Shown one piece after another: positions 7,937 through 39,182 of a DNA stretch of 40,880 nucleotides (positions are counted from its first letter, which is position 1; every line of letters starts with the position of its first letter). A program made the translations under genes and the position numbers. This stretch comes from Kiritimatiellia bacterium (lineage in GTDB: Bacteria; Verrucomicrobiota; Kiritimatiellia; RFP12; UBA3636). The stretch spans positions 1 to 40,880 of the forward strand of contig JAFUOX010000031.1 of the NCBI GenBank assembly GCA_017481725.1, given 5' to 3'. A model generated the notes under the pieces. The model saw only the letters and a program-made list of their open reading frames with translations, made no database searches and had not been told where the DNA came from.

Positions 7937-8253
7937 TGTGTGAATTGGCGCGCAGTGCGCGCTGAAAAAACAGAATCATAAGCGCAGAACTAATAGGTTT
8001 TTCTAAATGGCAGCGCGGAATGCCGCGCACTCTGTGTGGGGCGGCAATTATTCGATAGCATTCGACCCACCCCCTGCATCACGCCCCGCATTTCAAAAGC
8101 CTTGATGGGTAGCACCCCATTACCACACCCATCACGCACTCCACCACACCAGCCCAGCTCCCTCCGCTGAAAACCACGCTACGTGTGCTTAGCGTCTCTG
8201 CGTCCCTTCTTCGCACTTCTAGCGGTTACGAAAATATTACAGTCGAATTTAGG
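7937..8253. repeat. Palindrome-rich intergenic island, part 1
   Basis: No gene is seen. The stretch is more GC-rich than its neighbours and holds short perfect palindromes: GCGCGC-AGT-GCGCGC (7948-7962), GCGCGG-AATG-CCGCGC (8013-8028) and CACG-CTA-CGTG (about 8175-8185). Positions 8192-8223 are an exact 32-bp match to 30467-30498. The AAAACCAC...TACGTGTGCT stretch at about 8170-8190 recurs, nearly identical and inverted, at about 38520-38541. It belongs to the same dispersed repeat family as the islands at 29.3 and 38.5 kb. Confidence 0.75.
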
Positions 8254-29386: not shown

Positions 29387-29538
29387 AACTGTCCAACTCG
29401 CCCACTCGCAAACTGTCAAACTTTCCAACACCTAAATTGATTCATTTTTTTTGTATAGTTTGACAGTTAGATAGTATGACAGTATGATAGTTTTATAGTA
29501 TGACAGTTAGATAGTGAAGATGAGGGTGGCTTGCCGCC
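29387..29538. repeat. Inverted octamer-array cassette A1
   Basis: The left array is a series of 8-bp units of the type NACTNNCN (AACTGTCC, AACTCGCC, CACTCGCA, AACTGTCA, AACTTTCC). A spacer with an 8-T tract ending GTAT follows, and then a right array of 8-bp units of the type AGTNNGAY (AGTTTGAC, AGTTAGAT, AGTATGAC, AGTATGAT and so on) in inverted sense. AACTGTCAAACT (29411-29422) pairs perfectly with AGTTTGACAGTT (29457-29468) over a 34-nt loop. It ends with a GGGTGG...CCGCC mini-hairpin. Confidence 0.8.
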
Positions 29539-29543
29539 AGTAA

Positions 29544-29708
29544 AACTCAACTGTCAAACTTTCCAACTCGCCCACTCGCAAACTGTCAAACTTTCCAACA
29601 CTTAAATTGATTCATTTTTTTGTATAGTATGACAGTATGATAGTATGACAGTATGATAGTATGACAGTTAGATAGTTGGATAGTGAAGATGAGGGTGGCT
29701 TGCCGCCC
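29544..29708. repeat. Inverted octamer-array cassette A2
   Basis: Same layout as A1, directly downstream: left octamers, a spacer nearly identical to A1 but with a 7-T tract, right octamers (AGTATGAC and AGTATGAT alternating, then AGTTAGAT, AGTTGGAT), and the terminal GGGTGGC / GCCGCCC mini-hairpin (to 29708). The number and order of units differ from A1, as expected of a variable-number repeat. Confidence 0.8.
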
Positions 29709-29759: not shown

Positions 29760-30058
29760 TTTCCTGAAACATTAGACGCTAGACAACGCTGACGTTAGAC
29801 ATTTAGATGATAGAAAACCATTGAAGTGAAACGCCCTTAACACGTCTCACGTCTTATTGTCTATCGGTGGTCTCACGTCTAACGTCGTTCAACCGTCTCA
29901 CGTCCCTTCTTCGCACTTTTGAAGCGTGCTACCACACACAAAGCGACTGGAAGTCGCTTCTCCATACTCTGCCAGCCCGCGAGCGTGATGCACGTGACGC
30001 CAATGGGACGCAGAGACGCGGAGGTCGCAGAGGTCGCAGAGACGTGACGCCGAAAAAT
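29760..30058. repeat. Mosaic repeat stretch between cassette A and the first 75-bp palindrome
   Basis: No credible gene is seen. The stretch contains GTCTAACGTC/GTCTCACGTC-type short repeats (about 29850-29910) and a perfect 7-bp palindrome, AGCGACT-GGA-AGTCGCT (29941-29957). From 29979 it enters the roughly 186-bp segment duplicated at 38576-38760, which includes GGGACGCAGAGACGC and twice GAGGTCGCA. Frames across it give arginine-rich products with no family features. Confidence 0.6.
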
Positions 30059-30133
30059 ACACTAGCGGAATGAGCTTTGCCTTGGATATTGCTACTCTTC
30101 CGAAGCAATTGGGCAAAACTCATCCACTAGTGT
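30059..30133. repeat. 75-bp imperfect palindromic element, copy 1
   Basis: The ends ACACTAG and CTAGTGT pair. Inside, ATGAG/CTCAT, TTTGCC/GGCAAA and ATTGCTxC/GxAGCAAT form successive stem segments separated by small internal loops, with a 6-nt apical loop. It differs from copy 2 (38654-38728) at five of 75 positions. It lies within a 187-bp segment (29979-30165) shared with 38576-38760. Confidence 0.82.
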
Positions 30134-30347
30134 GCTCGCCCAAAAGACTATTAAGACGCGGAGGCAACGCATTATAATAAATGAAGAATGAAGAATGAAA
30201 AATGAAGAATTTAGGTAGAGTTGAGTGGCTGTTTTCTCCATTCTCGCGTCTAACGTCGTTTAACCGTCTCGCGTCTAACGTCCCACTTCACACTTCTAGC
30301 CACCACGTGCATCAGCTTAGCGTCTCTGCCTTCTTGGCGGTCGAACA
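30134..30347. repeat. Mosaic repeat stretch with ATGAAGA-type tandem
   Basis: No gene is seen. After the end of the shared segment (30165) there is a short degenerate tandem of ATGAAGA/ATGAAAA units (about 30180-30210). GTCTAACGTC and GTCTCGCGTC repeats like those at 29850-29910 follow, and then a TTAGCGTCTCTGC fragment of the family also found at 8189-8223. Confidence 0.5.
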
Positions 30348-30422
30348 CACTAGCGCTTGGCAGTTTCCTTATTGCTTCTGAAAGATAGAGCAATAACCAA
30401 GGAAACAACAAGCGGTAGTGTT
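30348..30422. repeat. 75-bp imperfect palindromic element, variant copy 3 (inverted orientation)
   Basis: It is again exactly 75 bp from ACACTAG to TAGTGT. ACACTAGCGCTTG pairs with CAAGCGGTAGTGT (one mismatch), GTTTCCTT (30364-30371) with AAGGAAAC (30400-30407), and ATTGCT with AGCAAT. Read on the - strand, its core keeps TTATTGCT, TCTTTC and GAAGCAAT as in copies 1 and 2. The outer stem arms have different sequences that still pair. Confidence 0.78.
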
Positions 30423-30540
30423 ATCACAGAACCCACCACGCAAGCCCTGCGACCTCTGCGTCCTTTGCGTCTCTGCGTCCCTTCTTCGCACTTCTAGCTA
30501 GCACCAGCATCACATGTAAATTTGCCTTTTGTATGTAAAA
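30423..30540. repeat. End of island A with 32-bp repeat
   Basis: 30467-30498 is identical to 8192-8223, a 32-bp exact repeat 22 kb apart. The CTGCGACCTCTGCG stretch just before it is the inverted form of the GAGGTCGCAGAG units at 30021-30041 and 38618-38638. No gene is seen. Confidence 0.75.
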
Positions 30541-30618: not shown

Positions 30619-31812
30619 ATGGCGTCACAGTCGCGTTTTATAGATAAATTAGTTTCTAAGCTTAATCGCTTGGATGCAGAGAACCTACAAGCCCAATTTT
30701 TAAGCCTAGCCCGTGAAAGAGGAATTTTAGAAACAATATTCCAGTCAATTCAAGAGGGAATACTCGTCGTGTCAGCTGAGGGTCGATTGTATTATGCCAA
30801 TCATGCAGCAGAGCAATTATTTGGATTTGAGATTTCAAAAATGCGAGGCCGCCCGATAGCTCGCTATATTCCAGATGTGGAATGGGATCAGCTTGCCGGA
30901 GGAGAGGAAGCAGAATGGGCAAAGCTCTCCAGAAGTGAGATTGAGGTTTTTAATCCAGAGCATAAGATAATAAGCTTATATGCTGTTCCATTGGAGGAAG
31001 GTCTTGGTGAAGAGACTGGTCCATGCGTGGTATGTATTCTTAGAGATATTACAAGAGAAAGGGCAGAGGAAGCCGAGGTTGTTGAAACCGAGCGTATGAA
31101 AGCCATTCGCTTGCTTGCTGCAAGCCTCGCTCATGAGATAGGAAATCCGCTCAATGCACTAGGAATTCATTTGCAGCTCTTCAATCGAGAATTAAAATAT
31201 CTACCAGAAGAGGATAGAGAACGCCTTTCAGAGCTAGTGACTGTCGCACAGGAGGAGGTTTCTCGCCTTGATCTTATGATTTCCAAGTTTTTGCGAGCAT
31301 TGCGCCCAAGCCCCCTTGAGTTAACAGATTGCAATATGCAAGAGGTGCTTGAGGAATCTTTAAAAATTATGAAGAGCGATATTGAAGAGCATCAAATTTC
31401 TGTATCAATTGCTCATCGTGGCAAGATCCCAGTCGTTAAGGCAGATGTTCAGCAAATGAAGCAGGTCTTTTTTAATATCGTGAAGAATGCTCTTCAAGCA
31501 ATGGAAAATAAAGGACAGCTATGTATCACGCTTGAAGCAGATGATAGAAATCTAGCAATAGCATTTAAAGACTCAGGTAGTGGCATTAGCGAAGAGGATT
31601 TTCGCCTCTTGTTTGAACCATATCATACAAGCAAGGCTAAGGGTAATGGTCTAGGACTAACGATTGTTGATAGAATTATCCAGGATCATGGAGGACGCCT
31701 TGAGGTCTCTAGTAAAAAGGGTGTCGGCACCTGCTTCCGCATAATTTTACCGTTAGCTAATCGTAAGACAAGAATGCTTACTGTGGAGAAAAATAATGAA
31801 AAAGCAATATAA
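30619..31812 (+). CDS. Cytoplasmic PAS-domain sensor histidine kinase (NtrB-like)
   Basis: The 397-residue protein has no membrane segment. A PAS domain (about 36-150) is followed by a HisKA dimerisation domain with the phospho-acceptor H172 in SLAHEIGNPLNALG. The HATPase_c domain shows NIVKNALQAM (N box), DSGSGI (318-323), LFEPYHTSK and GNGLGL (342-347). It autophosphorylates on His and passes phosphate to the regulator encoded next. Its stop codon lies within the first codons of the regulator gene (17-base overlap), so the pair is coupled. The signal sensed by PAS is unknown. Confidence 0.93.
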   Translation: MASQSRFIDKLVSKLNRLDAENLQAQFLSLARERGILETIFQSIQEGILVVSAEGRLYYANHAAEQLFGFEISKMRGRPIARYIPDVEWDQLAGGEEAEWAKLSRSEIEVFNPEHKIISLYAVPLEEGLGEETGPCVVCILRDITRERAEEAEVVETERMKAIRLLAASLAHEIGNPLNALGIHLQLFNRELKYLPEEDRERLSELVTVAQEEVSRLDLMISKFLRALRPSPLELTDCNMQEVLEESLKIMKSDIEEHQISVSIAHRGKIPVVKADVQQMKQVFFNIVKNALQAMENKGQLCITLEADDRNLAIAFKDSGSGISEEDFRLLFEPYHTSKAKGNGLGLTIVDRIIQDHGGRLEVSSKKGVGTCFRIILPLANRKTRMLTVEKNNEKAI

Positions 31813-37742: not shown

Positions 37743-38465
37743 ATGCATACGCTACTATTGCCAACAGAAATATTGCTTTCAGAAGGAGAGCAACCATTGC
37801 CCGATGCGCAGGCTCATCATTTAGTTACTGTGCTTCGTGCAAGACTAGGCGATAAGCTTGACCTTACAGATGGCAAGGGACATAGACGCACTGCAGTAGT
37901 ATCACAGCTGGCTAAGCGTAGTGCAGTTGTAAGCTTTACAAGCGAGGTGGAGACAGTGCCACCTCCTCCTGTTGAGTTAACATTGTTTCAGTGTATAGCC
38001 AAGCCAGCTCGTATGGATTGGCTAGTTGAAAAGGCTCAGGAGCTGGGTGTTAAGCGTTTGGTGCCGATAGTTTCTGAATATGTGCAAATAAAACCAAAGG
38101 ATAGTAGCATTGAGCGTTGGGTTCGCATTGCTGAAGCAGCAATTACACAATGTAATAGTGGCTATTTGATGGAAATAGAGTCGGCATGTTCATGGAAGGA
38201 GGCTCTGTCTTTATTTTCGCAGCAGCCTACCTTACTTGCAGATTTACGTGAGAAGAGTCGTACATGCACAGCTGCGGTGCATGAGCTTTCTCAGCCTATA
38301 ACAAAATTAGGTATTATTATTGGTCCTGAAGGAGATCTTTCACCAACCGAATTGGAACAGGCTACTATTGCTGGTGTTATTCCTGTTACATTGGGGTCAA
38401 ATATTCTTCGAGTTGAAACAGCCGCTCTATATGCGATTTCTGCTATTTCTGAGGCATTGTCTTAA
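37743..38465 (+). CDS. rsmE: 16S rRNA (uracil1498-N3)-methyltransferase
   Basis: The 240-residue SPOUT-class enzyme has an N-terminal PUA-like domain (AHHLVTVLRARLGDKLDLTDGKG, about 24-46). The SAM-binding trefoil-knot domain has AKPARMDWLVEKAQELGV, GIIIGPEGDLSPTELE and LGSNILRVETAALYAI at the C-terminus, all typical of RsmE. It methylates U1498 of 16S rRNA in the 30S subunit. It follows dnaJ after 17 bases, an arrangement (dnaJ-rsmE) common in many bacteria. No clear terminator follows; the second repeat island begins directly after the stop. Confidence 0.95.
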   Translation: MHTLLLPTEILLSEGEQPLPDAQAHHLVTVLRARLGDKLDLTDGKGHRRTAVVSQLAKRSAVVSFTSEVETVPPPPVELTLFQCIAKPARMDWLVEKAQELGVKRLVPIVSEYVQIKPKDSSIERWVRIAEAAITQCNSGYLMEIESACSWKEALSLFSQQPTLLADLREKSRTCTAAVHELSQPITKLGIIIGPEGDLSPTELEQATIAGVIPVTLGSNILRVETAALYAISAISEALS

Positions 38466-38653
38466 CACGTACACGGATGAGCGATTTATCGCTAGCACTT
38501 AAGCCTTCGGCGAAACACGGAGCACACGTAGTGTGGTTTTCTGGGAGAACGGAGACGCTAAAGGGACGCAGAGACGCGAGTGTGATGCACGTGACGCCAA
38601 AGGGACGCAGAGACGCTGAGGTCGCAGAGGTCGCAGAGCCGTGACACCAGAAA
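38466..38653. repeat. Repeat island B, lead-in with short palindromes
   Basis: No gene is seen. Successive small palindromes include AGCGAT-TT-ATCGCT (38480-38492), GCC-TTC-GGC (about 38503-38511) and CACAC-GTA-GTGTG (about 38523-38535). Then come two blocks containing GGGACGCAGAGACGC and a GTGATGCAC palindrome. From 38576 it matches island A (29979 onward). Open frames on the - strand here resemble one drawn from the same repeat at 29929-30123, but only because the DNA repeat is shared. Confidence 0.7.
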
Positions 38654-38728
38654 ACACTAGCGGAATGAGCTTTGCCTTGATTATTGCTTCTCTTTCGAAG
38701 CAATTGGGCAAACCTCATCCACTAGTGT
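38654..38728. repeat. 75-bp imperfect palindromic element, copy 2
   Basis: Paired segments are ACACTAG/CTAGTGT, ATGAG/CTCAT, TTTGCC/GGCAAA and a perfect 8-bp apical stem ATTGCTTC/GAAGCAAT with loop TCTTTC. Copy 1 (30059-30133) has one mismatch in the apical stem, so copy 2 is the better-preserved version. Confidence 0.82.
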
Positions 38729-38772
38729 CCTCGCACAGGAGTTTATTAAGATGCGGAGGCTTGCTACGCAAA

Positions 38773-38882: not shown

Positions 38883-39023
38883 AACTCAACTGTCAAACTT
38901 TCCAACTCGCCCACTCGCAAACTGTCAAACTTTCCAAGCCTCAACACCTAAACAGTTCCATTTTTTTTGTATAGTTTGACAGTTAGATAGTTGGACAGAG
39001 AAGAAGAGGGTGGCTTGCCGCCC
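38883..39023. repeat. Inverted octamer-array cassette B1
   Basis: Same design as A1/A2. Left octamers run from 38883, with AACTGTCAAACT (38920-38931) pairing perfectly with AGTTTGACAGTT (38973-38984). The spacer has an 8-T tract and a different inner sequence (CTAAACAGTTCC instead of CTAAATTGATTC). Only three right units are seen before GGGTGGC / GCCGCCC. Confidence 0.8.
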
Positions 39024-39032
39024 TAGACTCCC

Positions 39033-39182
39033 AACTATCAAACTCGCCCACTCGCCCACTCGCCCACTCGCCCACTGTCAAACTTTCCAAGCCTCAACAC
39101 CTAAACAGTTCCATTTTTTGTATAGTTTGACAGTATGATAGTTTGACAGTTGGACAGAGAAGAAGAGGGTGGCTTGCCGCCC
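39033..39182. repeat. Inverted octamer-array cassette B2
   Basis: The left array contains four successive units of the type ACTCGCCC, the longest such run seen, then CACTGTCA and AACTTTCC. The spacer is as in B1 but with a 6-T tract. Right units are AGTTTGAC, AGTATGAT, AGTTTGAC and AGTTGGAC. It ends in GGGTGGC / GCCGCCC. Confidence 0.8.

Follow-up and report, generated by a model that had tools for sequence, protein, structure and literature searches.

Palindromic hairpins in intergenic spacers of the window

The window, which is the whole stretch of 40,880 nucleotides analysed here, derives from a Kiritimatiellae genome of 2.59 Mb and contains three 75-nt hairpins located between genes. Copies 1 and 3 form an island upstream of a histidine kinase gene (30619-31812), and copy 2 is found downstream of a gene encoding an RNA methyltransferase domain (37743-38465). 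All three hairpins had been recognized in a preliminary description and are indeed present, though copy 3, when read in register, lies one base away from the position first assigned to it. The features are:

29985..30058, plus strand: 5' arm of the copy-1 unit (GTGATGCACGTGACGCC..GGGACGCAGAGACGC..), common to A copies; left limit approximate
30059..30133, plus strand: A-type hairpin copy 1, 75 nt
30134..30165, plus strand: 3' arm of the copy-1 unit (GCTCGCCCAAAAGACTATTAAGACGCGGAGGC), common to A copies
30312..30346, minus strand: 3' arm of the B unit (copy 3); limit approximate
30347..30421, minus strand: copy 3, a B-type hairpin of 75 nt that converges with copy 1 across a gap of 213 bp
30422..30498, minus strand: 5' arm of the B unit (copy 3); outer limit approximate
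38580..38653, plus strand: 5' arm of the copy-2 unit; left limit approximate
38654..38728, plus strand: A-type hairpin copy 2, 75 nt
38729..38760, plus strand: 3' arm of the copy-2 unit

Five positions distinguish copy 1 from copy 2, as originally described, and four or five of these are unpaired; the exchanges of stem arms that had been reported for copy 3 are correct. Folding of all three copies was far stronger than that of dinucleotide shuffles (z-scores of -5.7 to -8.0) and was equalled by none of 200 shuffles with either DNA or RNA parameters. Conservation extends into the flanks, such that the repeated unit measures about 150-180 bp with a hairpin of 67-76 nt in its middle, preceded by a 5' arm (GATGCACGTG..GGGACGCAGAGACGC..) some 75 nt long and followed by a 3' arm of roughly 32-40 nt. 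Pairing of the flanking arms with each other gave -17.2 kcal/mol as compared to -16.5 kcal/mol for swapped arms. The arms thus add no stem beyond chance, and structural conservation ends at the 67-76-nt palindrome. An isolated fragment of a unit arm (GCTAGAAGTGCGAAGAAGGGACGCAGAGACGC) is present at 8185-8223 in a spacer without a hairpin match. Both hairpin-bearing spacers additionally hold arrays of AACTGTCAAACTTTCC and TTTGACAGTTAGATAG words together with GGGTGGCTTGCCGCC repeats (29387-29651 and 38889-39149).

The hairpins belong to a large, genus-specific family

A covariance model was built from 42 copies and used to search the genome of origin (G000), those of two sister species (G001 and G002) and 16 other genomes of the same family. 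The three window copies proved to be members of a genome-wide family with at least 106 distinct copies in G000, comprising 57 of type A (74-76 nt), 27 of type C (67-68 nt), 16 of type B (one of them degenerate), four of type D (with ACATTA ends) and two deviant copies. When copies 1 and 3 served as queries on the same genome, each matched at least about 40 places among the candidates scored. The model detected about 22 copies in G001 and about eight in G002, and these sister species carry related arms and the further hairpin types E, E2 and F. Zero copies were found in the 16 other genomes of the family. Among the genomes searched, the repeat is therefore restricted to a single genus of animal-gut bacteria within the Kiritimatiellae. 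A 16-base pattern search across genome contigs yielded one true relative (L074), while the remaining matches look like chance. Neither curated nor relaxed thresholds gave a match in Rfam, viral contigs and phage and plasmid records did not match the repeat, and a literature search combining Kiritimatiellae with palindromic intergenic repeats found no report.

In G000, 52 of the 106 copies are located no more than 400 bp from a contig end, so the true copy number is probably higher than 106. The contigs bounded by the repeat hold ordinary host genes, and the repeat accounts for the places at which this assembly is broken. With more than 130 copies in three species, the family constitutes a natural data set on the recognition and evolution of a single-stranded hairpin.

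Base pairing is conserved within and between species

Across the 53 family A copies of 75-76 nt, minor alleles averaged 8.8 per unpaired but only 0.9 per paired column (p = 1.7e-7), an approximately ten-fold lower variation in paired columns. In the A3 alignment, 98.9% of the pair cells contain standard pairs, the covariation score was 0.101 as opposed to 0.025 in shuffles, and 26 cells were changed on both sides, compared with 5.3 in shuffles. A second set consisted of 53 distinct non-A sequences from the three species. Here, pairs anchored at the ends, i.e. defined by their distance from both ends, were complementary in 92% of cases, and compensatory double changes occurred at eight positions (2, 3, 4, 5, 18, 19, 20 and 21). 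The number of double-change cells amounted to 57, whereas sliding the pairing by one to three positions gave 0-29. These pair-change counts are uncorrected for relatedness, and many of the changes represent events at the level of subfamilies. In a comparison meant to separate selection during copying from selection on resident copies, private variants, too, were somewhat depleted in paired columns (p = 0.02), and the difference between private and shared variants was not significant (p = 0.19). The orthologous A copies at L062 and L086 have one private variant in common and differ at two positions, both unpaired, with all stems kept. Selection on a folded single strand, which had been proposed from the three window copies, is supported by the persistence of covariation and of the contrast between paired and unpaired positions throughout the genome and across species, the check put forward together with that proposal.

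Gene order is broken beside this orthologous pair: the gene that precedes the copy in G002 finds its match elsewhere in the window, as if rearranged via the repeat.

Placement, pairing of copies and exchange of hairpin interiors

The copies sit between genes, and the only open reading frames they overlap (eight of 52 copies) are mechanically called ones. Around the 52 copies with enough flanking sequence, both neighbouring genes were co-oriented with the hairpin in 21 cases and both opposed in 16, with seven and six mixed arrangements, such that no clear orientation bias is apparent. Where an A hairpin lies less than 300 bp from a B, C or D hairpin, the two are convergent in ten out of ten cases with linkers of 105-279 bp; some of these ten pairs may share descent from one composite, and most copies are unpaired in this sense.

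Presence of the repeat varies between orthologous spacers. Downstream of the RNA methyltransferase gene, an A unit is present in G000 and a different short hairpin framed by E2-type arms in G001, and G002 is repeat-free. The island upstream of the histidine kinase gene is missing in G001, where the preceding gene differs as well. The conservation of flanks and the mosaic nature of spacers prevented the definition of a target-site duplication or of exact boundaries of insertion. In G001, the different short hairpin (CAGCCAGGCGTCGTCCTGGCTG) often takes the place of the 67-74-nt one inside E2 arms, as seen at no fewer than six loci (L101, L143, L152, L153, L158 and L161).

Inner and outer parts of the hairpins have been swapped. 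One example is the orthologous spacer L053/L093, in which two species share 5' arm and outer stem but have an inner hairpin of C type in one and of B type in the other. In G001, hairpins of the 74-nt as well as the 67-nt class are found in each of the outer frames ACACTAG, ACGCCAG and ATGCTAG. A half-and-half chimera at C97:16570 lies near the end of its contig and could result from misassembly. We infer from this swapping that recombination or gene conversion takes place between copies. To our knowledge, few short bacterial repeats combine such clear cross-species replacement of base pairs in stems with exchange of the hairpin interior in place.

Search for an enzyme that could move the repeat

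A REP-associated Y1 transposase had been suggested as a possible partner. Y1 genes (PF01797) do exist, three in G000 and one each in G001 and G002, but none of them has the hairpin nearby within the loci examined in these genomes (78-88% complete). The Y1 gene of L063 (1026-1904) is instead flanked by a different REP of its own (AAGCGACTGGAAGTCGCTTCTCC), with which it likely forms a REPtron in Kiritimatiellae; this REP occurs once in the window (29941-29963). A typical REP of the same genome thus adjoins its Y1 gene, whereas the 75-bp element does not. Insertion sequences with matching ends were not seen in the loci examined, and no autonomous partner for the repeat was found.

One other candidate gene, encoding a GxxExxY (PDDEXK_3) nuclease-like protein, is flanked in G000 by a convergent pair of hairpins 818 bp apart (L044:33-999, contig C76). 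It was rejected as the mover, as no such gene was found in G001 with its approximately 22 copies and the other genes of this kind lack a nearby hairpin.

Relationship to known repeats and interpretation

REP sequences are defined as palindromes of 20-50 nt that follow a GTAG-type tetranucleotide, and the BIMEs of E. coli combine y-z1 and y-z2 REPs in inverse orientation (PMC8266576). The family described here resembles REP/BIME elements of the TnpA-REP/RAYT type in being composed of high-copy extragenic imperfect hairpins with conserved stem mismatches, and the ten close A-X pairs, in which two hairpin types are inverse to each other with a variable linker, are BIME-like. Unlike REPs, the hairpin is 67-76 nt long, is preceded by GAAAAA(T), GTGATA or similar bases rather than a GTAG/GGAG tag, is embedded in a conserved unit of 150-180 bp and has inner parts that are exchanged between outer frames. 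Two tested features, palindrome length and tag on the one hand and proximity of a Y1 gene on the other, thus differ from RAYT-REP families, and the repeat is not a proven REP. Bacterial MITEs such as ERIC, bcr1, NEMIS, RUP and Nezha are non-coding, folded elements of 70-300 bp beside genes (PMC3733652). Size, lack of coding capacity, folding and gene-adjacent location all agree with this group, but neither target-site duplications nor terminal inverted repeats shared with a known IS were found in the loci examined.

The family combines high copy number, intergenic placement, compensatory stem change, arm-bearing subfamilies, A-X pairing, spacer differences and part swapping. The hairpin probably forms the centre of a mobile palindromic repeat that is non-autonomous, is specific to the genus and behaves like a REP/BIME or a MITE; the REP/MITE-like nature suggested earlier remains the best heading. 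A putative enzyme acting in trans would recognize the extruded or single-stranded hairpin and then copy or move the unit. As recognition would depend on the folded hairpin, mostly copies with still-pairing stems would multiply. Recombination between copies via shared stretches could then shuffle inner and outer parts and homogenize the copies within a species. The repeat is most likely a small mobile passenger of an already known, REP/MITE-like kind; unusual are the swapped inner and outer stem parts and the fact that no mover gene was found. A bolder version, to which we give a small chance, is a class of hairpin-guided mobile repeats independent of Y1 (RAYT) transposases, in which the apical hairpin is an exchangeable cassette moved by a putative hairpin-recognizing enzyme. 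In that version, the 74-nt class, the 67-nt class and the short third type would be inner hairpins that can replace one another within various outer frames and arms.

Pairing could also have been kept for function if each copy acted as a structured RNA element in its transcript, be it in mRNA stability, as an RNase III site or as a small RNA. The strong conservation of pairing, weakly visible even in private variants, the stable RNA folds and the retention of all stems in the orthologous A copies agree with such a role. It is nevertheless unlikely, given the lack of a clear orientation preference relative to neighbouring genes and of an Rfam family, the lineage-specific presence at orthologous spacers and flanking arms without a stem beyond chance. 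Alternatively, a passive palindromic repeat could have spread by homologous recombination and replication slippage in repeat-rich spacers, with pairing maintained by hairpin-templated repair and not by selection. Location of half of the copies at contig ends in mosaic spacers fits this idea, as do the shuffling of inner and outer parts and the similarity of outer frames within a species. Templated repair should, however, give many double changes in family A, where variation is almost entirely unpaired, and mismatched positions persist, which makes a passive origin quite improbable.

Integron attC sites are imperfect, bulged hairpins recombined as folded single strands. A site-specific recombination site, for instance an attC-like cassette boundary, would be in line with the imperfect, bulged hairpin and its conserved unpaired bases, the in-place exchange of interiors at L053/L093 and the possibly misassembled chimera near a contig end, but is very unlikely: direct reading of the copies confirmed the reported mismatch of their ends with attC boxes, with the RYYYAAC and GTTRRRY core sites absent, and instead of a cassette array the copies are scattered singly or as convergent pairs.
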